DNA of 64,000 nucleotides from a virus, in the IMG/VR virus record IMGVR_UViG_3300048927_000250, positions 62,001 through 126,000 of that record; one strand, 5' to 3'. Position numbers and translations under genes: made by a program. Positions 24,220-38,178 of the stretch are shown piece after piece. A model generated the notes under the pieces. It worked only from the letters and a program-made list of their open reading frames with translations, was not told the DNA's origin and searched no databases. Each line of letters opens with the position of its first letter. Within the stretch, counting starts at the first letter, position 1.

Positions 24220-26040
24220 TTACACGCGGGAGATTAGCGTAGAGCCTTGTTTGGTGATGGTGATTTCACCGCTCATGCTCCAGTTGGTTCCACGACCGGT
24301 ATCGTTGTAGACCTTGATGTAGTTCCAGCGACCAACCCCAACAGCTGGCAGGTTGAATGGACCCACGTTCACGGTACCGGAGTTACGTCCGTTGTTACCG
24401 GTATCTTTGTACATCACCTGCGCATCACCAATACCGTCACCGCCACTGTAGACGTAGAAGTATTGACGTTCACCGGAACCGCAGTACACGTTCAGACCAG
24501 AAAGCGTACGCGCGAAGTTTGCACCCGGAATACGGTAGATGGCCGTTGGTGTACGGATAGCTCCGCCCTGAGACCAACCAGGGAGCGTCTGGTTACCCGT
24601 CTGCCCCTCTGCTTCGTTCATCATGCGCGTTACCAGCAGTGAACCACCACGTGGCGTCAGGTAACGGTCAGAGGCCGTACCTGCTTGCGCTTCCGCATCG
24701 TTAGCCGTCAGGAAGTTATTGACGTTACCCAACCCAACCTGAGCTTTCGTAACGTTGTGTGGGTTGTCCTGACGGTTGGCGTGGGCGTTAATCAGTGGCA
24801 CTGCCAGCACGTTAATCGCTTGTGCAGTACGCAGCGGTGTCATGTACGTGGCATTGTCCGCCCCGACTTGTGCCTGCGACTGACTGGCGATACCGTAGTT
24901 CTGCACTGCACCCAAACCAACTTGTGCCGCCGTCACGCCGTGTGGGTTAGAGCGGTTGTTGATGTGGGCGTTCAACGGAATCAACGCCTGTTTCGAAACA
25001 GCCTGGGCCGTACGAAGAGGCGTCATGTACAGGACGTTACTGGTTCCGTTCTCAGCATCAAGCTGGGTGGCAATCCCGTAGTTCTCAACGGAGCCTAACC
25101 CGACTTGCGCTTTGGTTGTCGCATGGGGGTTGTTCTTATCGTTGATGTGGGCTTGAATCACCGGAGTGATGTTAAGCGCGGTGTACTTGGCGATTTCCTG
25201 CCAGGTAGTCAGTGGCGTCATGTACAACGTAGACGAGGTGCCCGCTTCCGCTTCCGCCTGAGTAGCAGGACGGTAGTTTTCCACAATCCCTAAGCCAACC
25301 TGCGCCTTGGTGGTATTGTGGGGGTTGTTCTTGTCTGCGATGTGTGCGTTGAGGTTCGCTTCCACTTGCGCCAGGTGTTGCTCAATAGCCAGGCAACGAG
25401 CATCCAGGCGATTGACGTTGGCGTACAGGTCAGCATCCACTGCATCGAGACGCGCCACTTCATCCAACATCTGCTGACGAACACGGTTGATGTATTCGTA
25501 GATAACGTTGTGCGAAGCGACGTCACCCTGAATCACCGCCCGCGTCAACTCTTCCAGCGCCAGCACCACGTACTCCAGGGAGTACAGGTCAGTGGCAGCA
25601 TGTAAGTGCTTGCTCGGGTTGAAGGTCAGCGGTTTACCCCAGATGTTACCCCAGGAGACCACACGGTCGTCCTGCATCAAATCGTTCATCATTTTCACGA
25701 TGGCGTCGATGCTGTAGGAGTAAGGTCCGCCCACAACCTGATACGTCAGCAACACGGTATCGTAGTCGCGGTTCACCAGGTTCAGGATGTTGTACACCGG
25801 TAAACCCAGGTTCTGGGTGGCTTCAACGTACGGGTAAATCAGGGTGTAGTCGGTACCGAGGTCGAGTTTCTTCCCACTGGCTTTGTCAGTAACGACCATG
25901 GAGTCGCCGTAGAACGGACCACCAAAAGGCTGAAACGCTCGGTTAAACTGTTTATCGACGGTGCGCTCTTCACCGATTACTCGGTTAGCCGCACTCTGCC
26001 CCGTTCTGTCCAACGGGTACTTGGGTTTGGTTAAGGCCAT
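24220..26040 (-). CDS. Tail fibre with NPHxTKAQVGLG repeats, 606 aa
   Basis: Residues 1-200 form an N-terminal attachment region that resembles the start of the 30535-33111 fibre (WGNIWGKPLTFNPSKHLHA versus WAAVVDIPDELPPVPHRH). It is followed by four copies of a roughly 65-residue repeat, each with NPHxxTKAQVGLGxVxNY and YMTPLRTAQ (about residues 240-480). The C-terminal 120 residues (NLPAVGVGRWNYIKVYNDTGRGTNW) are a separate beta-rich tip. Such repeats are trimeric fibre shafts of enterobacterial phages. Start ATG 26040 with GGGAG. Confidence 0.85.
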   Translation of the reverse strand: MALTKPKYPLDRTGQSAANRVIGEERTVDKQFNRAFQPFGGPFYGDSMVVTDKASGKKLDLGTDYTLIYPYVEATQNLGLPVYNILNLVNRDYDTVLLTYQVVGGPYSYSIDAIVKMMNDLMQDDRVVSWGNIWGKPLTFNPSKHLHAATDLYSLEYVVLALEELTRAVIQGDVASHNVIYEYINRVRQQMLDEVARLDAVDADLYANVNRLDARCLAIEQHLAQVEANLNAHIADKNNPHNTTKAQVGLGIVENYRPATQAEAEAGTSSTLYMTPLTTWQEIAKYTALNITPVIQAHINDKNNPHATTKAQVGLGSVENYGIATQLDAENGTSNVLYMTPLRTAQAVSKQALIPLNAHINNRSNPHGVTAAQVGLGAVQNYGIASQSQAQVGADNATYMTPLRTAQAINVLAVPLINAHANRQDNPHNVTKAQVGLGNVNNFLTANDAEAQAGTASDRYLTPRGGSLLVTRMMNEAEGQTGNQTLPGWSQGGAIRTPTAIYRIPGANFARTLSGLNVYCGSGERQYFYVYSGGDGIGDAQVMYKDTGNNGRNSGTVNVGPFNLPAVGVGRWNYIKVYNDTGRGTNWSMSGEITITKQGSTLISRV

Positions 26041-26057
26041 CGTAAGGCTCCCTTTGG

Positions 26058-26090
26058 GGTTACTTCAAGCGAATATAAAGCGGGTCAGTC
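26058..26090 (-). promoter_or_regulatory. AT-rich promoter candidate
   Basis: Minus strand TTTTATAGACTGACCCGCTTTATATTCG, 35-45 bases upstream of ATG 26040. Two TATA-like blocks. Confidence 0.3.
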
Positions 26091-26103
26091 TATAAAATGA
26101 GAC

Positions 26104-27198
26104 TTACGGCGGAGTGATGTTCGACAAGACACCGTCTTCCTTGGTGAAGTAGAGTTGCTTGTCCACGGTGGAACTGAACAGGCGACCCTGCGGCATCTCC
26201 ATGACGGCCTTTGGGTTACCCGCAGCATACTTGACCCAGGCACGGTTTTCGTACTTCCAGGTGGAGTTGTCACGGGCGTCGATAATCGGTTTATTGCTAC
26301 CCGGTGACTGGAACACCTTGAAGGTAGCCTGTGGCTGACTGAATGCAATGTAACCAATCTTTGCCGGTTGCTGGAAGCGTTTCAGGTCAGCGCTGGTCAA
26401 TGGGATGACCAATGAGTTGGCTTCGCTGTACACAGTCGGTGAACCCACGTCGGAGGCCCAGATTTTAATCTGCGTTGCCGTACGTTCCACCTTCAGTCGC
26501 ACAGGTCCTGCTGTACCCCAACTTCCCTTCCCGCCGTTGGTGGTAATCCCTTCCGCAGGAATCACTGAACCATCCGCATGGTGCAGGGTACCGGTCACGC
26601 CACCGATGTACTTCATGGTACCGGTCGGACTCGCCGGGTTCAGTACCACGTACACCGGGTCAATGCGGTAACTGGCGTCATGGGGGACAACCGTGGAGAA
26701 AGTGCGGTACACCATCAACGACATCGGGACGCCGTTCTCTTCCAGATACGCCAGGCACAGACCGATAGCATCGTCATCGCCATCCGCACTGGACAATTCG
26801 ACTTCAAAGATGTAGCTGTCGTATTTGTCAGGAGACAGGAAGCCGGTGGTGTACACGGAGTTCACGGTGCAGACAATCGCATCGTTCGCTGAGTCGTAGT
26901 TCCACGCAGCGGCTTCGGCCGGGTCCGTCATCTTGTTGGCCCCGTTCAGTGAGATGCGCTCCCACTGGTTGAACACGGTTCCAAAGCTGGCACTCTTTTG
27001 GTCGTTCAGTTGAGCATCCGTGTTGACGATAGGATAAAAGTTTACCAGTGGTCCGGAAACTACGCTCGGCGTACCGTCCTCAACTTTGCTGAACAACGCA
27101 TCACCCTTACTCCAGTTAGGGCGGTCAAGGAGGTCGTAAATACCGGTATTCACCAACACCTTAAATTGCTGGTAAAATTCCCGCAAACTAATTTTCAT
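26104..27198 (-). CDS. Fibre or adhesin-type protein, 364 aa
   Basis: Start ATG 27198 with AGAAGG. The N-terminus MKISLREFYQQFKVLV resembles the MKVSLRAVLKPVLDFV start of 29918-30472, suggesting the same mounting site. The body is beta-rich (SYIFEVELSSADGDDDAIGL; KYIGGVTGTLHHADGS) and has a lectin-like or LamG-like feel (FVNQWERIS, PVRLKVERTATQIKIWASD). The C-terminus (RLFSSTVDKQLYFTKEDG) is short. Probably a receptor-binding or fibre-side protein. Confidence 0.6.
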   Translation of the reverse strand: MKISLREFYQQFKVLVNTGIYDLLDRPNWSKGDALFSKVEDGTPSVVSGPLVNFYPIVNTDAQLNDQKSASFGTVFNQWERISLNGANKMTDPAEAAAWNYDSANDAIVCTVNSVYTTGFLSPDKYDSYIFEVELSSADGDDDAIGLCLAYLEENGVPMSLMVYRTFSTVVPHDASYRIDPVYVVLNPASPTGTMKYIGGVTGTLHHADGSVIPAEGITTNGGKGSWGTAGPVRLKVERTATQIKIWASDVGSPTVYSEANSLVIPLTSADLKRFQQPAKIGYIAFSQPQATFKVFQSPGSNKPIIDARDNSTWKYENRAWVKYAAGNPKAVMEMPQGRLFSSTVDKQLYFTKEDGVLSNITPP

Positions 27199-27242
27199 CG
27201 CAACACCCTTCTAAATTGGTCTCCGTCCGTGGAGAAGAGTCC

Positions 27243-29924
27243 TTAAGGGAAGGTCCAGTTTAAAGCACCGGTGGTTGTCGGGTTACCGCTCGAGGCCGGG
27301 ATAGCGAACGGAGCCTTATCGAACGACAAGGAGAAGCCGTCAATCCCTACCACTTTAAAGACTGTTACACTGACAACGTGCGTCGTGTCCGTGGCGACAG
27401 TCCCTACGAGTAATCGGTTCCGGTCAGCGCTTTGTGGACCATTGGTGACCAGGTAGTCAAACTGCCCATCGGTCAACTGAACGTAAATGTAAAAGGTTTT
27501 GTTACTGGGGTCAGCTATTACGCTGGCCAGGTTGACGGTTTTCTTCGGCGCGCGACCTTTGATACCCGCAATCTGGCAATACACCTCTTCTGAGAAGTAT
27601 ACGTTCCAGCTCCCCTTCACTGCCTGTGTTGCAATTACCTTGGCTTTGGCGGTTGCCCCTGACAATACACTCGTCTTGGTTCGTCCGTACGACATCACCG
27701 TCAGGGTGGTTTGTACGAATAAACTGTCGACACTGGTGTTCATCGCCACCACCCCTAAAGAGGAGGGGAGAGCAAAGAGTTCGTCTTGGTTCGCGTACCC
27801 ATGACCTTGGTAATCTCGAATGGCGAACATCGCCCCATCGCTGTCATTGAATCCCACCGCCTGCGTCGGATGTCCAGAGTTACCCGGATAACTGGCGGAG
27901 AATGGAATTGACCCGCCCACAAAGGTGTAGTCGGTTTGTTCAGCAATGGTCATCCCGATACCACCGGCTCCCACGTTCACCACGGAGATAACACCCGTCG
28001 CGACTTGCGCAGACAATCGTTTTTGAGTAATCGACACCGCAGACAACGTCCCACCCGACCATCCGGTTTTATCCCCCATTGTCAGGAAACTAAAACCTGC
28101 CCCATCGCCCATGATAATCAAAGTCAGTGATACGAACTTGTTGGCCAACTTCTTCGTCAGAATGCGCGGGATGGCGACCACCGTGTGCATACTGCGAATT
28201 GTCCCTACCCCGCCCAACTCAGCGCGAGCAGATGCTTCAATTGCATCGAAGACAGCCGCCGTCACTGTAGTATCATTCGTCCCTATCCCGTATTGGTCAA
28301 GGTTAGAAGACCCACTGGGTGCGTCGCGGGTAAACGTATTGGACAACCGGACATTAAAGTTGACATCAATCTCCGTTAACATCCGGGAAGTTTCCATCCC
28401 CCCAGTCGCTTCCCTCCCCGTGTCCAATGCCCACGTCGAGGTGGTGCCGTCCGGGTAGTTGAACACCGTGGTATCGTTGTAGTTGATGCCGGTGATGTTC
28501 GCCTGCCCGCCATCGAAAGAGACGCGGAGTTTATCCTTCGCTAGCACTTTCGGGATACGGATACTCACCGTCAGGGGCGTAGGGTAGTTACCTTTATACG
28601 CATACGGTGGTTTCCCACTGAAGTTACGTTGTTTCGGGTCCAACCACACCGCATCAGGAACCACCCCAAGGTACTGTTGTTGGGAAGTCCCGTAGACCAC
28701 AGAGTTGGTTTGTGTCAACACTTCTTTCGTGCGCGGGCAGCGGCCAAACGACGGTCTGACGTTACCCAGCCCCGAAAGACCGTACTTAACTGTATCCGGG
28801 TAAGAAGCCAAACCATTGATAACGATGCTGTTGGCGTTGGTGTCACCGACCGCTTGTGTCGGACCCAACGAGTTGGGTTGCCAGGTAAAGGTCTTCGTTA
28901 TCAGGTTAACATCCACTTGACGACTGACCAGAACACGGATGGAAGCACCGCTCGCCAAACTCACCCATTGTTCATGGACGAAGAAAAGACGATACGTATC
29001 ACCCGACAAGAATGTGGCGTGGATACTCGGCGGCTGAATCATCGGTGCGGTTGCTGGGAGGTTATCCGTCCATTCGAAATAGACCGAGTCATTCCCTAAA
29101 CCAGGTACCCCAGTGATGTAGTACTTTGACACCGCAATCGCATCCCAGCTGTTGAACTGGTTGCCGTGAATGTCTTTACCCGTCCAACCTAAGAGTTGGG
29201 TTGCAGCACTTGCTGGGTTACCCGTGTACGTTTCCATTTTATCCACCACGATAGACAAGGCTACACCTTGCGTGTCGTTGAGGTTGTAATGGAAATGGTA
29301 GAGACTACCCTTGTGCGCCAGTACGCAAGAAAGGCTCGGGGTCCAGGTGCTACCGATAATCCCTTTCAGTCCGGTTGCGTGGGCAGCCGGGTCCAGTGTC
29401 CCCGTACGCTCACTGACCGCAAAGAAAGAACGGTTGTTTACACTATCCCTGACCAGCAATGCTACCTGCGTCTCCAGGCCGTTTATCACGGCGATAGGAC
29501 GTTGGGTGTCAGGTAGGTACGACGGTTGCCAGATGTTCGCTAACGGGCTGTATCCTTCGACATTCCCTAACGCATTGACATTGTACTTACAGAGGTAAAC
29601 TCCGTACTGCGAACCGTCGCATCCTGCCCGAAGATAGTTACGTGACCCGTCTGCTTCGACGTTGTACGCAATCCCTGGGTTGTAAGTCGCCGCCCCTTCG
29701 TACTTCACCGAGATATTTGGCGGGATGAACCCCAGGTCGCCGAACTGGGACAACGGAAGGTCACCGGAACCTGCTATCAGGGCGAGTTTCGCATCCACCT
29801 GGTCTTTGGTGTACGTCCCGACTTGGTCCGTGGTAACCTCGTTTGGGTTTGCCCCGTCATCAATGGCCTGCTGGTAATCGGTCACCGATTTGATGGTCTC
29901 ACCAACACTCACCGATTTTACCAT
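27243..29924 (-). CDS. Large tail fibre protein, 893 aa
   Basis: Start ATG 29924 overlaps the stop of 29918-30472 (ATGGTAA). The N-terminal region (YTKDQVDAKLALIAG, DLPLSQFG) matches the neighbour (YTKTEIDSLLSAKLQ, DVPISYWG), as do the last 80 residues in layout (FYIYVQLTDGQFDYLVTNGP versus NFIYLKADVGALTYMVSATE). The 750-residue middle is beta-rich, with segments that look like propeller or adhesin blades. It is the largest fibre in the window and a prime receptor-binding candidate. Confidence 0.75.
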   Translation of the reverse strand: MVKSVSVGETIKSVTDYQQAIDDGANPNEVTTDQVGTYTKDQVDAKLALIAGSGDLPLSQFGDLGFIPPNISVKYEGAATYNPGIAYNVEADGSRNYLRAGCDGSQYGVYLCKYNVNALGNVEGYSPLANIWQPSYLPDTQRPIAVINGLETQVALLVRDSVNNRSFFAVSERTGTLDPAAHATGLKGIIGSTWTPSLSCVLAHKGSLYHFHYNLNDTQGVALSIVVDKMETYTGNPASAATQLLGWTGKDIHGNQFNSWDAIAVSKYYITGVPGLGNDSVYFEWTDNLPATAPMIQPPSIHATFLSGDTYRLFFVHEQWVSLASGASIRVLVSRQVDVNLITKTFTWQPNSLGPTQAVGDTNANSIVINGLASYPDTVKYGLSGLGNVRPSFGRCPRTKEVLTQTNSVVYGTSQQQYLGVVPDAVWLDPKQRNFSGKPPYAYKGNYPTPLTVSIRIPKVLAKDKLRVSFDGGQANITGINYNDTTVFNYPDGTTSTWALDTGREATGGMETSRMLTEIDVNFNVRLSNTFTRDAPSGSSNLDQYGIGTNDTTVTAAVFDAIEASARAELGGVGTIRSMHTVVAIPRILTKKLANKFVSLTLIIMGDGAGFSFLTMGDKTGWSGGTLSAVSITQKRLSAQVATGVISVVNVGAGGIGMTIAEQTDYTFVGGSIPFSASYPGNSGHPTQAVGFNDSDGAMFAIRDYQGHGYANQDELFALPSSLGVVAMNTSVDSLFVQTTLTVMSYGRTKTSVLSGATAKAKVIATQAVKGSWNVYFSEEVYCQIAGIKGRAPKKTVNLASVIADPSNKTFYIYVQLTDGQFDYLVTNGPQSADRNRLLVGTVATDTTHVVSVTVFKVVGIDGFSLSFDKAPFAIPASSGNPTTTGALNWTFP

Positions 29925-30472
29925 GACGTATTCCCCGCACTGTTCGAAACAGGGATGGCATTCCCACGGCGGGTGTTAGACAGACGCTTACCGCCAATCT
30001 GGATGACTGGAGTAAAATCGGTCAACGTTGCACTGGTACCTGTCCCCACTGCTTTACCGAGGTACATCAACGTATTCGACTCAGCCTGTTCAGTCGCACT
30101 GACCATATAGGTCAACGCCCCCACGTCTGCCTTCAGGTAAATGAAGTTCGTTGCCCCGGAGGTTTTGGTGATAGTCAGGGTACTGACCGGAAGAACCACA
30201 CGGATACCCGCCAGCAGGGAAGGAACGGCAGTGTTAATCTTCAGCCCTGCGCTATCGACCGCCACGGAAATGGCGAAGGTGTCGGATTGTCCCCAGTAAG
30301 AAATGGGAACGTCACTCAACTGGAGTTTGGCGGACAGCAGAGAATCAATTTCGGTTTTGGTGTACGCATTGATTTGAGCGGCAGTAACGTTGGTCGGGTT
30401 ATTGGTGTTATTAACGAATTGAGTAACAAAATCTAATACGGGCTTGAGTACCGCTCTGAGAGATACTTTCAT
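29918..30472 (-). CDS. Small fibre paralog, 184 aa
   Basis: Has the same beginning and end type as the 893-aa fibre next door but no long middle: NPTNVTAAQINAYTKTEID near residue 25, then NFIYLKADVGALTYMVSATE near 110. Start ATG 30472. This looks like a minimal fibre of N- and C-terminal modules only. It could be a short fibre in its own right, an attachment adaptor for the long one, or a remnant of a deletion. The intact frame favours a working protein. Confidence 0.6.
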   Translation of the reverse strand: MKVSLRAVLKPVLDFVTQFVNNTNNPTNVTAAQINAYTKTEIDSLLSAKLQLSDVPISYWGQSDTFAISVAVDSAGLKINTAVPSLLAGIRVVLPVSTLTITKTSGATNFIYLKADVGALTYMVSATEQAESNTLMYLGKAVGTGTSATLTDFTPVIQIGGKRLSNTRRGNAIPVSNSAGNTSW

Positions 30473-30504
30473 GTTACACCCTTTATGGTTTAATCAGAAT
30501 AAAG

Positions 30505-30524
30505 AGAGGGGACGAATCCCCTCT
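30505..30524 (-). terminator. Minus-strand terminator
   Basis: Stem AGAGGGGA / TCCCCTCT with TTCG loop on the minus strand, followed by CTTTATTC. Ends the 30535-33111 unit. Confidence 0.65.
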
Positions 30525-30534
30525 TCTTAGATTA

Positions 30535-33111
30535 CTACGCGGTGGTACCATCGTCGTACTTGATATCACCGTTGACGGTCAGGTCGCGGTCGACTGTACC
30601 GGTCAGCGCCAGAGATACGCCGTAACCATTGCTGGTCGCTTTGATTTCCGTGCTGTCTGCGATACCGAAGGTCGGCGACGCCATCAACATCACACGCTCA
30701 GTGCTCAGTGCCATGAAGACTTCGTTCGTGTACTCGTTAAAGTAGAAACGAGATTTACGAAGCGGACCTTCGAAGCCTGCCACATTGGTCCAAACACCTT
30801 TGGCGTAACTGTAGGTCTTCGCCCCAACAACGTCAGTGAAGACGAAGTTCAGGCTCGGCCAGTTATCCGGTTTGAAGGTGACATCAGCCAGGTCAGTGGT
30901 TGGGGTCAGTATGCCAGCACCGAAGACGTATGCCAGGTCAGTCAACGTCAGACCCGTTTCGGTCAGGATGTTGGTCAACGGATACGTTGCGGTGAAGATT
31001 TGCGTAGCCCCGTTCTTCAGGATAATCTGAAGGTTAACGCCACGGGTGATTTTCGCGCTGTAAGTCAGGGTTGCTCCTGCGGCGGCACTTAACGCAGCTT
31101 CTGCTTTCGCATCCACCAACGTCCCTTGGCTGTCCAGGTACACTTCCGTCACGCCGGTGGTACGAATACGCGCCGCCATGAAGTTGTCTTCCATGTTACC
31201 GGACCCGGTATCCACCTGGTAGTGCACTAACGGTAAGTACACCGCAATGCCCGCACGCATGGTGAATGTCCCGGTGAAGGTCAGGACGGACGGTAAGACG
31301 TCGTACTCGTTGTCCGTGAACTGCCACGCCAGGGTTGGGGTACCGGTGCTGTTCCCTTTGGTCACGAGACCCAAACGAGACGCAGTCCAGTCGCCTTCCA
31401 CGGTGGAGTCAGCCAGCAGGCCTTCAAACGGGGCACGGGAGATGATGTCGTTCACCCAACCGGTGTTCGCCGTCAAGTGATAACCATCAACCAACAGTGT
31501 ATCCAGCAAAGCGCCGGCCGTTGATGGAATCATGTACTTGTCTGGCGCACCATTTAGTACATCCGTTTCCGACGCTGCCGCGTAGTTCTGTACCTGACCC
31601 AACCCAATCGAGTCTTTGGTTACAGGTTCAGCACCCGCTGCAATCATGTCGTGCACGGGACCGTTCAGGAAGATACGCAGGTCAGCCGCAGAGACGTATT
31701 TGTCGTCTGCTGTCATCGCCAGAATATCAGCGTCTTCTGCCATACCGTAGTTCTGAACATTGCCGAGGCCGACCTGTGCTTTGGTCGTGTTATGCGGGTT
31801 GTTGTAATCCGCGATGTGCGCAGCAATACCATCGCTACCGGTGGCTTTCAGAATCTGGTTCACCAGGTAAGCGGTCATCAGCTTATCGGTGGCCGTCCCT
31901 GCAATGGCTTCCTGTAGCGTTGCCACCCCGTAGTTTGGCACGTTACCTAAACCTACCTGGTCTTTGGTGACCTGGTGCGGGTTACTGAAGTCCAACAAGT
32001 GTGCGGAGAGACCCTGACCCGAACCGTTGGAGATAGCTTGCGCTACCAGGTACGGAGACATAAAGGTGGTGGTACTGGTTCCCGAAATCGCTTCGGCCAA
32101 TGTCGCCATCGCATAGTTCGGTACGCTACCCAGACCCACTTGCGCCTTCGTGACGTTATGCGGGTTGTTGGTGTTCCCGGTGTGTGACGCCAGCGCCAAC
32201 GGAGCCAATACGTCAATGGCCGCTTTAGTCAATGCAGGTGTCATGAAGCGGTTGGTTGCTACGCCCGCCTGTGCCTCCACAACGGTCGCCGTCTGGTAGT
32301 TGTCAACTGACCCTAAACCAACCTGGGCTTTCGTTGTACCGTGCGGGTTATCCGTCCGATTCGCGTGCGCATTAATCATCGGAACAATGAACTTGTTAGT
32401 GAAGTCCATCACACGCAATGACGTCATGTACTTGACGTTGTCAGTACCGGTCTCGGCTTCTTCTTTACTGGCCGGAACCAGGTTACCCAGGTCATCAATA
32501 CCCAAGTCAGCCAAGGTAATGTGGTGCGGGTTGGCGTGGTCAGCAATGTGCTCAAGAAGAGCCTGAAGCGCTTTGTTGTACCCGGCTTCCTGTGCGTCAA
32601 TCAAGTCATACAGGCGAGCCACCACTTCATTCATCCCGACCATGTCGTCCACATTGTGACGATGCGGTACCGGTGGTAACTCATCCGGGATGTCCACTAC
32701 CGCAGCCCAGGTCACGGTGCGCGGGTCAAGCTGTTTGTTGGCCAGCAGCGTCGTAATCTGGTTGATATCCAGAACGAACTCGCCACCCAGCGTCTGATAA
32801 TCAATTTCGACTATCAGGTTTGCCTGCGGGTCGTTCATGACGATAGCACCGTAAATAGGTTGCATCGCCCCCGACAGAATCATCTGGTCAAAACGGAAAC
32901 CGAAGTAATAGTCGTACCCTGGACGTAACGGCAACTGGGTTGCGGCATTCCGTAGCACGAAACCACGTCGGTGAAACGGTCCCTTGGTAGGGATAAAGAA
33001 GTTCGTCTGACCGTTGCCCACAGGCGTAATGGTATGACGCTCCTTAGTAATCTTGTTGTTCGTATTCGTCCCGTATGGGTCAAACTCGAACTCGTACGCT
33101 TTCGTTACCAT
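30535..33111 (-). CDS. Tail fibre with six NPHxTKAQVGLG repeats, 858 aa
   Basis: Start chosen at ATG 33111 with CGAGGA; a GTG 27 bases upstream has no good site. The N-terminal 190 residues are an attachment domain (TKGPFHRRGFVLRN, LILDINQITTLLANK-like region, PPVPHRHNVDD). Residues 190-560 hold about six repeats with NPHxxTKAQVGLGxVxNY. The first copy (NPHHITLADLGIDDLGN) and last (VTKDSIGLGQVQNYAA) are worn. The C-terminal 300 residues are beta-rich with a small trimer-type tip (YLNGDIKYDDGTTA-like end). It is a paralog of the 24220 fibre. Confidence 0.85.
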   Translation of the reverse strand: MVTKAYEFEFDPYGTNTNNKITKERHTITPVGNGQTNFFIPTKGPFHRRGFVLRNAATQLPLRPGYDYYFGFRFDQMILSGAMQPIYGAIVMNDPQANLIVEIDYQTLGGEFVLDINQITTLLANKQLDPRTVTWAAVVDIPDELPPVPHRHNVDDMVGMNEVVARLYDLIDAQEAGYNKALQALLEHIADHANPHHITLADLGIDDLGNLVPASKEEAETGTDNVKYMTSLRVMDFTNKFIVPMINAHANRTDNPHGTTKAQVGLGSVDNYQTATVVEAQAGVATNRFMTPALTKAAIDVLAPLALASHTGNTNNPHNVTKAQVGLGSVPNYAMATLAEAISGTSTTTFMSPYLVAQAISNGSGQGLSAHLLDFSNPHQVTKDQVGLGNVPNYGVATLQEAIAGTATDKLMTAYLVNQILKATGSDGIAAHIADYNNPHNTTKAQVGLGNVQNYGMAEDADILAMTADDKYVSAADLRIFLNGPVHDMIAAGAEPVTKDSIGLGQVQNYAAASETDVLNGAPDKYMIPSTAGALLDTLLVDGYHLTANTGWVNDIISRAPFEGLLADSTVEGDWTASRLGLVTKGNSTGTPTLAWQFTDNEYDVLPSVLTFTGTFTMRAGIAVYLPLVHYQVDTGSGNMEDNFMAARIRTTGVTEVYLDSQGTLVDAKAEAALSAAAGATLTYSAKITRGVNLQIILKNGATQIFTATYPLTNILTETGLTLTDLAYVFGAGILTPTTDLADVTFKPDNWPSLNFVFTDVVGAKTYSYAKGVWTNVAGFEGPLRKSRFYFNEYTNEVFMALSTERVMLMASPTFGIADSTEIKATSNGYGVSLALTGTVDRDLTVNGDIKYDDGTTA

Positions 33112-33144
33112 GGAAAAAGTTCCTCGAGGTTTATTCACCCGGCC

Positions 33145-34450: not shown

Positions 34451-35035
34451 ATGTTCGAAAAACTGGAAGCGGCTGTCGGCAGTAAAGTGTTGTACGGGGT
34501 CATCTGGATTGCGACCCTGACCTTCACGTACTGGTTCGGCGGACACATTGAAAAAGAGAAGACCACGGCGGTCGACTCGGCGGTCTCGAGTGTCTCCACG
34601 CAATTGGGGACTATCCTGACCAATCAAATTAACACGCAGGTCGGTGGGATAAACGCCAGACTGCTTGGAGATACCAATGCGATTAACCTCATTCTTCAAG
34701 GTGGCTTCAAAAACAATGACGATGCTGATGCTCGTCTGCATAACCTCACTAATGCTGGGGTGTACGTCAAAGCCAGTCCTGGTACCCCAGGCGAAACCAA
34801 AGCCGCTGGTACTGCCGCCGCTGGACCCGGCAATAATGCAACCTATCGAGCCCAACTTTCAGACCAGGCTCGAGACTTTTTTGCAGGCGAAGCTAAACGC
34901 GCCAACCAATGTGCCGTTCAACTCAAAGGCGCTCAAGATACCCTCTTGAGTTGGCAGCGCGCTGTTGATGAGTACAACCGAACTGTTGCTGACCCCAATG
35001 GTTACGACCGCGTTCAACTGCCCGATAAAAAATAA
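34451..35035 (+). CDS. Rz: Rz-type inner-membrane spanin, 194 aa
   Basis: N-terminal membrane anchor (VLYGVIWIATLTFTYWFG, residues 14-31) after a short cytoplasmic end, then a long periplasmic helical region (KEKTTAVDSAVSSVSTQL onward) with an Ala/Pro/Gly segment near 115-140. A smaller lipoprotein frame (34677-34949) lies wholly inside it in the +1 frame. This is the embedded Rz/Rz1 arrangement: inner-membrane spanin and outer-membrane lipoprotein link through the periplasm and fuse the membranes at lysis. ATG with AAGGTG. I found no neighbouring endolysin. Confidence 0.8.
   Translation: MFEKLEAAVGSKVLYGVIWIATLTFTYWFGGHIEKEKTTAVDSAVSSVSTQLGTILTNQINTQVGGINARLLGDTNAINLILQGGFKNNDDADARLHNLTNAGVYVKASPGTPGETKAAGTAAAGPGNNATYRAQLSDQARDFFAGEAKRANQCAVQLKGAQDTLLSWQRAVDEYNRTVADPNGYDRVQLPDKK
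34677..34949 (+). CDS. Rz1: Rz1-type outer-membrane lipoprotein spanin, 90 aa
   Basis: Lies inside the Rz gene in the +1 frame. Start chosen at ATG 34677 (GGAG 8 bases upstream); a TTG 12 bases upstream is less likely. MRLTSFFKVASKTMTMLMLV begins a signal peptide, and LMLGC gives a lipobox with Cys29. The mature part is proline-rich (VPQAKPKPLVLPPLDPAIMQP), as in known Rz1 proteins. The mature lipoprotein should be 62 residues in the outer membrane. Confidence 0.85.
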   Translation: MRLTSFFKVASKTMTMLMLVCITSLMLGCTSKPVLVPQAKPKPLVLPPLDPAIMQPIEPNFQTRLETFLQAKLNAPTNVPFNSKALKIPS

Positions 35036-35047
35036 AAAAAAGAACCT

Positions 35048-35071
35048 CCTGAGGACCCGAAGGTCCTCAGG
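35048..35071. terminator. Convergent terminator
   Basis: Stem CCTGAGGACC / GGTCCTCAGG with CGAA loop, after an A-run and before GGTTTTATGC. It ends the spanin unit and the 35076 gene. Confidence 0.85.
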
Positions 35072-35075
35072 GGTT

Positions 35076-35783
35076 TTATGCTGCGATGGGAAAGGAAGGT
35101 GTGAAGTTGGCGCTATACCTTGCCTTGCGATAGCAGGCAAACTCCGGGATATAAAGGTTGGAAGCAGTACCATCGCCAATCTGAAAGATGGTTGACGCCG
35201 CAATGTTGGTCAACGAGTCCCGTTCAGTCAGACTGTAATCGCTCCCCGTGAATACTGCTAACCCTTGCTTCACCCCATTCAGGTAGACGGAGATTTTCCC
35301 GTTACGTCGCTGCATGACGAAATGTATCCAGCGATTGGTTCCGGTTGCTCGCGTTGTACTGGTTGAGTAGTTCGAGTTACCTATATCAGGTTGGGTCGAA
35401 ACCTGTAAGCGGTTACCGTACCCGTTATCCCCAAAGCGAATGATTAACCCGCCCCAACTGGATGTATTCGGGCGTTGGTACATCAAAGTCGTGTAACCAT
35501 TACTGGTCTGGGTACAATAGAAAGGAAATTCAATCGTGAAATCCCCGGTCCCTACATCCATTGACGTCAATGGGATGATGGGGAACTGTTTGGTTCCCGT
35601 GAACAGTGCCTTACTGTACCCCGAAAGGGCTACCGGTGGTGTGACCACATCACTAGCAACCAGGTTAGTGAGACTGATAACCTGTTTCCCGGTCGATAGT
35701 CCTTTCTCGAAATTATAACCGATATAGGGCTGCTCACCCGGAACAAATCCGTTCTTCTTACCGAGGAGTATGGCTTCTAACAT
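35076..35783 (-). CDS. Tip protein, shared N-terminal peptide plus LamG-like domain, 235 aa
   Basis: Begins MLEAILLGKKNG, a peptide shared in form by the three genes upstream. The rest reads as a concanavalin A/LamG-type jelly roll: FTIEFPFYCTQTSNGYTTL, SSWGGLIIRFGDN, WIHFVMQRRNGKISVYLNGV, ASTIFQIGDG. Those strands with the YLNGV hairpin are typical of Laminin_G_3 carbohydrate-binding domains. Probably a carbohydrate-binding module mounted by its N-terminal peptide. Confidence 0.7.
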   Translation of the reverse strand: MLEAILLGKKNGFVPGEQPYIGYNFEKGLSTGKQVISLTNLVASDVVTPPVALSGYSKALFTGTKQFPIIPLTSMDVGTGDFTIEFPFYCTQTSNGYTTLMYQRPNTSSWGGLIIRFGDNGYGNRLQVSTQPDIGNSNYSTSTTRATGTNRWIHFVMQRRNGKISVYLNGVKQGLAVFTGSDYSLTERDSLTNIAASTIFQIGDGTASNLYIPEFACYRKARYSANFTPSFPIAA

Positions 35784-35793
35784 GGTCTACCCC

Positions 35794-36543
35794 TTAAGGA
35801 ATGATTTCCAAAACAGGACGCCAACCTAAATAGGCCTGAACGTCAGTGATAACAGGTGCACCCACTGTCCAGATGCTACTCCAGACGGTTGCAGCACGGG
35901 CTAGGCTATCGTTGGCATTGACCTGCTCACGACACAACTGTAATCCGCCGGGTGTAGTGGTGCCACCAATCAACATCAGGTCGTTGACCGGGTCATACGT
36001 TTCCCATTTCGGACCTTCCTGCGCAGAAACAGTAGTGGAGACAATATTGGGAATCAACCGCATCCAATCCGACCCCAACATCTCCGTTCGGTTAGTGTAG
36101 TTCCCGTTATAAGGGAGTTTACCCAGACCGGGTTGCAGGACGTTCCACAACATGACCTTGTACGTAACCCCGTTCAATACGATGGTCCGTAACTGGTTAC
36201 GCGGCGTTCCGTTGTTGAACAGCCCGTTGTCGTTTGACCCCCAGACTAAACCCGAAGAGTAAAGCGCACTCCACCCGTAAGCAGAGGTGATGGGTTTCTT
36301 CGGTGTATAGAGGAGGCGACCGTCAATCCCGAATTTCAACCACGGGATGGTTGTGTTGATAGCCGACCCCACATTACCCCCGAGTGCTCGCAATGCGGCT
36401 ACTGAGGGCATAGCGCTGTTCGCCACCTCTCCGTAGAACTCCGTAAAACGCGCACTGTTGTTGGGGTCGACGTATCGCCCAATGGGCGTGGTCGCGCCGG
36501 GGTATCTACCGCTTTTCTTCCCAGCTAACAAAAGTTCTTGCAT
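35794..36543 (-). CDS. Tip protein with shared N-terminal peptide, 249 aa
   Basis: Start chosen at ATG 36543 (MQELLLAGKKSG, GAGG upstream). The N-terminal peptide is the same kind as in the neighbours. The body is different: SAINTTIPWLKFGIDGRLLY, SYGWSALYSSGLVW-like segments, MLWNVLQPGLGKLPYNG, and a WxxYDPVNDLMLIGG stretch. Some sections resemble tail-associated adhesins, but no family is clear. Starts just after the 36557 gene's stop. Confidence 0.6.
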   Translation of the reverse strand: MQELLLAGKKSGRYPGATTPIGRYVDPNNSARFTEFYGEVANSAMPSVAALRALGGNVGSAINTTIPWLKFGIDGRLLYTPKKPITSAYGWSALYSSGLVWGSNDNGLFNNGTPRNQLRTIVLNGVTYKVMLWNVLQPGLGKLPYNGNYTNRTEMLGSDWMRLIPNIVSTTVSAQEGPKWETYDPVNDLMLIGGTTTPGGLQLCREQVNANDSLARAATVWSSIWTVGAPVITDVQAYLGWRPVLEIIP

Positions 36544-36556
36544 GGTTTCATCCTCG

Positions 36557-37327
36557 TTACGCGCTGGGGTAAAGGGTTGCCGTGTCCGCAGTGAACCCGG
36601 TGGTCGGGAACAGTGCCCCGGCACGCAGTCGGTAACGTTCAACCATCCCCCTGACATCGGGACTGTTAGCCACAGACTGCGACATGATACCGACCTGTTG
36701 GTTACCCGTTGGAGTCAGAATCGTGTACGTCAACGTGTCAATCAACACCCCGTTACAGAAGAAGTAAACCTTGCCGCCAGAGTACATGACTGCAATGTGT
36801 TTCCAGTCGGTGCCGTAGAATGCATCGTTCTGTTTCGTTCCGTTGATTCTGGGCGCAGCCTGATTGTTCCAAATCCCAACCAAGCGGGCGGTGTTGGCGT
36901 ACCCCAAGGTACACTGTAACCGGTTGGTCCAGTAGCCGTTTACCGTGAGGTCGGGATAAACAATCAGGGGGACTAACGGTTGGTGTTTGTTAACCGGGGA
37001 AAGGACGTCCAAGTCCCGTTTCCAATAATCCACCGTCCAGGCACTGGTCACAAATCCTGGTGTAATAGTCCCGGGTGGAGTGGCGACAGAACCATGTCCC
37101 ATTTCCACACCCTTTCCGTATTGAAAACTTTCGGCACCCAATGAAGGTAATAGTGGGGGGACTGCTGCACCGGCGGTTGGGATAACACTGGTGACCTTCA
37201 AAGTTTTTCCGGTGTAATCGACAAAACCAGTGTCCCTGAAGATACTCGAGTCCCACGCCAACATCTCAGTGCCCAATGCCCACGCTGCGGACGGTTTCCT
37301 TCTTCCCATCAAGAGCGCTTCAATCAT
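36557..37327 (-). CDS. Tip protein, shared N-terminal peptide plus LamG-like domain, 256 aa
   Basis: Begins MIEALLMGRRKP. A jelly-roll-like layout follows: SAWTVDYWKRDLDVLSP, VNGYWTNRLQCTLGY, DWKHIAVMYSGGKVYFFCNG (strand, Gly-turn, strand as in LamG proteins), QQVGIMSQSVANSPDVRG. Start ATG 37327 with GGGGGAGG. Same mounting peptide, a diverged binding domain. Confidence 0.65.
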   Translation of the reverse strand: MIEALLMGRRKPSAAWALGTEMLAWDSSIFRDTGFVDYTGKTLKVTSVIPTAGAAVPPLLPSLGAESFQYGKGVEMGHGSVATPPGTITPGFVTSAWTVDYWKRDLDVLSPVNKHQPLVPLIVYPDLTVNGYWTNRLQCTLGYANTARLVGIWNNQAAPRINGTKQNDAFYGTDWKHIAVMYSGGKVYFFCNGVLIDTLTYTILTPTGNQQVGIMSQSVANSPDVRGMVERYRLRAGALFPTTGFTADTATLYPSA

Positions 37328-37336
37328 ACCTCCCCC

Positions 37337-38116
37337 TTATACGTCGTCTGCATTTTCAGGGAATGCGCGCGTGTCACCCCACATGATTCTTACGCCACCC
37401 ACACCTGCCCCGGCATACGCACGGGCGTTGTCACTCGAACGACGAGCCACCCCTGCGGATACACCACAGCGAGTACCTTTGACCAATGTCCCATACAGCT
37501 GTGAGCCTATCCCGTTGTTCCCGCCACTGATGTTCACGCCGTTGACGGTGTTACTGGTCATGGTACCAGCCTTACCCGCGGTCGTGTCGGTCGGAGTTGC
37601 CCCTGCTGTAGTACCACCGCCGTCTCCGTAGTACCCGCCCGTACCGGACCCCGGCGCACCTTGGGTACTACTGGTTGCAATCCTTACACCACCATCCCCG
37701 CCACCGGCTCCCAGAGAGTTGGCCACCATTGCATCTTTGGTTGCCCGACCACCAGACGCTTTCAAAAGCACGGTGGAACCGCGGAGGATACTGGTGTCCT
37801 TACCGTCTACCCAACCAATCCCACCGGTTGTATACCCAAGGTTACTGGTTCCCGCCCCGACAATGATGGTCAGTGTTTCACCGGGGGTAACTGAAATCGC
37901 ATTGTTGTAGCGCAGGGAGCCACCGACCCCACCAACGGTCGTGGTCACGCCGTCAAAGGTTCCGTACGCTGCATGTGCCCCTGCACCAATAGCCACTGCG
38001 CTGATACTCTTTACGCCGTCGGGTACAACCCAGTTAAAGGTTCCGGCGGCAATCCACATCGCCTGGCTAGGAAGAACCTCGACTTTCTTCTTCCCACCCA
38101 TCACCATTTCTAGCAT
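37337..38116 (-). CDS. Tip protein with glycine-rich adhesin-type body, 259 aa
   Basis: Start chosen at ATG 38116 (MLEMVMGGKKKV), after GAGG. After the shared peptide comes TFNWVVPDGVKSISAVAIGAG, which is how many glycine-rich phage tail proteins begin. Then there are many Gly-rich loops (GGVGGSLRYN, GAGGGDGGVR, GTGGYYGDGGG). Such bodies resemble the poly-glycine II sandwich of T4-like gp38 adhesins, where loops contact the receptor. Likely receptor-binding. Confidence 0.65.
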   Translation of the reverse strand: MLEMVMGGKKKVEVLPSQAMWIAAGTFNWVVPDGVKSISAVAIGAGAHAAYGTFDGVTTTVGGVGGSLRYNNAISVTPGETLTIIVGAGTSNLGYTTGGIGWVDGKDTSILRGSTVLLKASGGRATKDAMVANSLGAGGGDGGVRIATSSTQGAPGSGTGGYYGDGGGTTAGATPTDTTAGKAGTMTSNTVNGVNISGGNNGIGSQLYGTLVKGTRCGVSAGVARRSSDNARAYAGAGVGGVRIMWGDTRAFPENADDV

Positions 38117-38178
38117 ACGCACCTCGAAGCATAAAAGAATGACAGCGCTACCCGAAGGTAACGCCGCCATTGTTAGCG

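Follow-up and report, generated by a model that had tools for sequence, protein, structure and literature searches.

Why do four adjacent genes of a jumbo phage encode proteins that begin alike and then diverge? The genes lie on the minus strand (38116-35076) of the window, as we call the whole 64,000-nucleotide stretch analysed here, and their products all start with MxExx[LM]xG[KR][KR] (Table 1), referred to below as the tag. The virus is a PhiEaH1-like Erwinia jumbo phage; its record comprises 215,418 bases and shows 99% identity to PhiEaH1 in a 10-kb query. A purine-rich ribosome site stands ahead of all four starts, and two terminator-like hairpins flank the four-gene set, although the window overall is not enriched in such hairpins (5 seen vs 4.0 in shuffles). 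The public PhiEaH1 annotation starts g4 at the equivalent of 38170, within the upstream hairpin; 38116 is probably the better start, and the annotated one a start-site error. Nearby on the plus strand, an open reading frame with an N-terminal membrane segment (34451-35035) and a lipobox-containing frame (LMLGC) nested in it (34665-34949) look, by eye, like a spanin pair.

Table 1. Features of the four-gene set, in window positions.
Feature	Position	Strand	Description
Terminator-like hairpin	38138..38171	-	TTCG loop then T-rich stretch; immediately 5' of g4
g4	37337..38116	-	259 aa; peptide MLEMVMGGKKK + Gly_rich_2 body
g4 docking peptide (putative)	38087..38116	-	MLEMVMGGKK
g3	36557..37327	-	256 aa; peptide MIEALLMGRRK + LamG body
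g3 docking peptide (putative)	37298..37327	-	MIEALLMGRR
g2	35794..36543	-	249 aa; peptide MQELLLAGKKS + WRPVLE-type body (phrog_1062)
g2 docking peptide (putative)	36514..36543	-	MQELLLAGKK
g1	35076..35783	-	235 aa; peptide MLEAILLGKKN + LamG body
g1 docking peptide (putative)	35754..35783	-	MLEAILLGKK
Terminator-like hairpin	35048..35071	-	TTCG loop then T-rich stretch; immediately 3' of g1

A chance origin of the shared start is ruled out by its counts. In six frames, the strict pattern M.E.[ILVM][LM].G[KR][KR] matches 4 of 1448 Met-led 10-mers, vs 0.0013 expected from residue composition. Recent DNA duplication is ruled out as its source by the codons; synonymous codons are unlike in 13 of the 25 shared-residue comparisons among the four genes, indicating that conservation acts on the protein rather than on a copied DNA repeat. 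The tag is also concentrated at candidate starts preceded by a ribosome site, matching at 10/503 of these vs 2/1320 internal methionines in PhiEaH1 (p 9e-5) and at 14/561 vs 4/1776 in Salmonella phage SA002 (p 2e-6). The sequence-only reading had proposed four genes with a common N-terminal peptide, and this is borne out, with the starts exactly where it placed them.

Behind the tag, the bodies differ. Pfam assigns LamG_3 (PF13385) to g1 (E 1.7e-9) and g3 (E 1.3e-6) and Gly_rich_2 (PF21722) to g4 (E 5e-9), while a Pfam search with g2, whose fold has WRPVLE at its end, gave no match. BLASTP among the four proteins aligns only their first 10-22 residues, plus chance pieces. Two LamG bodies, one glycine-rich and one unassigned, as previously read from the sequence, are thus confirmed by Pfam and BLASTP, and a single conserved domain is ruled out by Pfam together with body clustering (below). 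In g4, the match to phrog_4474 begins at residue 1. The structural model of g2 (pLDDT 87, pTM 0.88) has low confidence in the first ten residues (pLDDT 53) and about 90 in the body. Foldseek against the PDB returned no significant match (E >= 0.1, TM ~0.3), but 5 of the top 6 were PvdO, TvpA or FGE entries, which suggests that the modelled body may lean towards an FGE/C-type-lectin-like fold (the Mtd, TvpA class). Among viral structures, it matches further virion proteins of jumbo phages.

The pattern extends far beyond the window. We collected relatives in named phages by tblastn and by a DNA pattern (below) and read their starts, arriving at ~60 tagged proteins from 14 phages, with up to ~14 in one genome and the tag on as many as about a dozen different bodies of sugar-binding type. 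The tag appears in Serratia phage PCH45 (VLEILTSKKS, MLEAMLTGRK), Salmonella phage SA002 (MLEIILGGAP, MFEILVGGVK), Rebecca (MLEMLFFGGK), Ea35-70 (MLEMIMAMPK, VFELLLNSSY), PhiPA3 (MFELLLGARL), 201phi2-1 (MIDLMLSLVQ, MIDLLMTTGG) and the Vequintavirinae phage SSBI34 (MLEMMSISIP, MLEILTAGEK), in four consecutive genes of SPLA10 (MLESMLTTAV, MLESMLTSEN, MLESMLLQGP, MIETMLGNGA) and, as a K-rich variant, in Burkholderia phages (MQDALLLKKK, MLSPMLLKKK). A loose DNA pattern matched 48 times in 17 whole records, vs 13 times for the reversed pattern, and reading the matches supplied many more of the ~60 proteins. Tagged genes are often in tandem. In PhiEaH1, a fifth member (L024, 417 aa) is of WRPVLE type, and a sixth starts MLESMTMSNG and has a LamG body (PF13385, E 3e-17); with at least these two members elsewhere in the genome, the earlier picture of a single compact cassette is not supported.

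The ~60 proteins fall into 16 body clusters, but the singletons may be remotely related to each other, so the safe count is at least five fold types. The kinds of body found behind the tag are LamG, glycine-rich, WRPVLE, Kelch (supported in SNUABM_37, L037; weak in Ea35-70, L030) and RCC1-like (weak in SA002, L028; above the RCC1_2 cut-off in contig L121). Among the outcomes that the sequence-only reading had named as fatal to it, neither a peptide absent from homologs nor bodies that form one domain is what we see; the search of related jumbo phages that it proposed found homologs carrying the peptide with various bodies. In the literature that we searched, we found no description of such a shared peptide, although its absence there does not prove that none has been published.

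We also approached the tag independently of the start pattern. A scan of IMG/VR with the C-terminal WRP[VI]LEL[VI] alone returned 77 loci, whose N-termini were the tag in 27, Fn3-like in 18, Mtd_N-like (by text pattern) in 4 and others in 28; the internal-Met control in this body-only search had the tag in 0/287 cases. Since 50 of the 77 loci carry another N-terminus, the tag would be one mount among several for the WRPVLE body, which elsewhere follows Fn3-like, DUF7941 or Mtd_N parts. PF18454 (Mtd_N) was above its cut-off in both loci scanned (L088 and L062). Single-protein IMG/VR scans with the LamG and Gly_rich bodies found few loci. WRPVLE proteins at six loci (L046, L064, L070, L107, L116, L119) have other short starts (MNPLxxAA..., MIHALxxAAHQARIR), perhaps more lineage-specific tags.

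Among pairs of proteins with different bodies, the mean BLOSUM sum was +11.7 over residues 2-11 and -9.7 over residues 21-30; the protein set was partly gathered by DNA pattern, which inflates conservation at the patterned positions, but body-only sets control for this, and the comparison with 24 body-only proteins gave +11.1 and -9.3. Tags on different bodies are more similar within a phage than between phages (16.5 vs 11.2; permutation p 0.0005), a likeness that could also stem from gene duplication.

Tagged genes are gained and lost as units. The tagged gene gp162 is present in Rebecca and five related phages and absent from RAY, Ea35-70, Simmy50 and Special G, yet its flanks are ~96% identical between carriers and non-carriers. 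At this site in Ea35-70, the gene and its upstream spacer are essentially missing, with 42 bases in their place. In the PhiEaH1-like contig L121, a LamG gene that shares 53% identity with g1 precedes a tagged RCC1-like gene (MLEMMLSLKKKK), a body type absent from the window.

Mimasviruses and Eneladusviruses have the same kinds of body behind another common start, MLPFPxxxxYGN. The CBB homolog of g3, CBB_247, begins MLPFPRMFEYGN, and CBB (L022), XbC2 (L016) and pEa_SNUABM_12 (L021) have runs of ~ten genes with MLPF[PAST]xxxxYxN or near variants (MLPFPIISNT), followed by LamG, Kelch, RCC1-like or glycine-rich bodies. In CBB, the annotation marks proteins 247, 536, 537, 548, 549, 551, 552 and 553 as structural, and all have the MLPF start; CBB_247, 536, 537, 551 and 552 were named as virion proteins by mass spectrometry (PMC5259590). 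Nothing points more strongly to a mounting role of the short N-terminus than the occurrence of like bodies on two unrelated tags. CBB also has external tail whiskers (PMC5259590); these are unexplained, and the MLPFP-type proteins are candidates for them.

Our preferred reading, to which we give a probability of roughly 0.6, is that the shared start serves as a short virion-docking tag, lineage-specific in form, behind which adhesin modules can be exchanged. The first ~ten residues, M-[LIF]-E-x-h-[LM]-x-G-[KRG], and a short linker would form a flexible N-terminal docking tag by which adhesin-type proteins, small and mostly beta-structured, are held at a single receiving site of the virion. If mounting depended on the tag alone, unrelated bodies could be gained, lost and swapped as whole genes with the rest of the particle unchanged. 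The tag presumably binds a virion protein, and the bodies presumably bind cell-surface glycans. Virion membership is recorded for relatives, both for the tag carriers gp452 and gp456 of 201phi2-1, which mass spectrometry places in the virion, and for the five CBB proteins with the MLPFP tag; the four proteins of the window are candidate virion proteins. The proposal of a common mounting peptide with exchangeable parts thus stands as far as the shared peptide, the various bodies and whole-gene gain and loss are concerned, whereas the mounting itself is what we infer. The label of a host-range cassette is not supported.

On which part of the particle would such a tag dock? The four had been described as tip proteins, but none of them is placed on a tail tip, and we dropped this placement because SPN3US paralog family B (gp138-154 and others), which includes relatives with the WRPVLE body, consists of head proteins according to tailless-mutant proteomics (PMC5694885, PMC5105663). 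Given these relatives, the docking site may be on the capsid rather than the tail. A reading in which the tag decorates the head exterior with adhesins, in the manner of T4 Hoc, is somewhat unlikely overall but is favoured by several observations: gp145, gp148, gp151 and gp146 of this family carry a WRPVLE-type body, every hexamer of the SPN3US capsid bears a Hoc-like protrusion (PMC7552025), and the tagged WRPVLE gene of Ea35-70 lies immediately 3' of the major capsid gene. However, the SPN3US family members lack the tag and are mounted by other N-termini, and the tagged genes of PCH45 and Noxifer come directly after genes for a collagen-like tail fibre and a DUF4376 protein. We consider the tail fibre or baseplate the likeliest site, at a little under even odds, then the capsid exterior, and with the smallest share somewhere else, including inside the head. 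The minus strand at 24220-33138 of the window encodes two proteins of 606 and 867 aa that look like fibres and contain repeats of the unit NPHxVTxxQVGLGxVxNY; they are possible receiving fibres for the tag.

The inside of the head has a precedent in T4, where internal proteins join the core via a common capsid targeting sequence (PMC5694885), and abundant members of SPN3US family B were marked 'Head ejection?' by the authors of the same study. That our peptide likewise directs proteins into the prohead for ejection is improbable, as the bodies have lectin and propeller folds of surface type and the phage of the CBB relatives bears external tail whiskers (PMC5259590). The four peptides also lack the prohead protease cleavage motif (A/S-X-E); they have M-L/I/Q-E, with M rather than A or S two residues ahead of E, where the sites reported for SPN3US include ATE, AQE and ASE. 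More doubtful still, and very improbable in our view, is that the peptide has no docking function and is a relic of translation starts or gene duplication, kept by chance. Tandem tagged genes could indeed have acquired a common 5' end through duplication, but synonymous codons differ among the four window genes, the peptide is retained over unrelated bodies in distant phages and shifts in a coordinated, lineage-specific manner, and an unrelated peptide has the same part in Mimasviruses and Eneladusviruses.

The docking tag that we favour has partial parallels in known systems. The same N-terminus is found here on different C-terminal bodies, as in modular phage receptor-binding proteins. The branched depolymerases of Klebsiella phage phiKp24 (PMC9700779) similarly comprise several receptor-binding proteins in which an attachment part carries an exchangeable distal part, and the N-terminal peptide of gp313 in that phage is short (51 aa) and believed to join another fibre (PMC9700779). 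However, they are long beta-helix fibres with mostly folded anchor domains, whereas we propose that ~ten residues suffice for bodies of 160-500 aa and at least five fold types. Capsid decoration adhesins such as T4 Hoc (PMC7602432) are modules that the particle displays but can do without; they touch cell surfaces and indicate a possible site for the tag, but Hoc is a single protein that binds the capsid through a folded domain, while the tag is one peptide on many unrelated bodies. The T4 capsid targeting sequence (PMC5694885) is also a short peptide common to otherwise unrelated proteins; unlike the tag, it directs proteins into the head and is cleaved, of which the tagged proteins give no sign.

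SPN3US family B (PMC5694885) resembles the tagged proteins in that its members are multi-copy and belong to the virion, and several of them have the WRPVLE-type body, but its N-terminal parts are DUF7941 (gp145, gp148, gp151) or Fn3-like (gp146, as in Noxifer_135) rather than a short tag. Among the four window proteins, only g2 has a WRPVLE-type body related to phrog_1062/3589, and it begins with the short peptide instead of a DUF7941 or Fn3-like part; g1, g3 and g4 lack the body too. Across SPN3US gp145-gp153 (L019, 3519-13657), DUF7941 and Fn3-like parts alternate among the WRPVLE-type head paralogs in a repeating three-gene order. The major tropism determinant is comparable in that its Mtd_N domain (PF18454) precedes the same WRPVLE body in IMG/VR loci, but the tagged proteins examined are without Mtd_N.

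More broadly, and tentatively, since we rate this somewhat below an even chance, large myoviruses may have a general plug-in display, in which a ~ten-residue lineage-specific tag and one repeated virion site allow many adhesin folds to be shown at once and to come and go one gene at a time; for the same body repertoire, at least two unrelated tags would have evolved, one of MLE type and one of MLPFP type. If true, this would explain why jumbo phages retain many small genes of unrelated fold annotated as 'hypothetical' or 'virion structural', and annotators could spot virion adhesins by their first ten residues alone. It would also provide a naturally tested short tag for displaying proteins on phage particles, and would turn the attachment partner of accessory virion proteins into a directly testable question.
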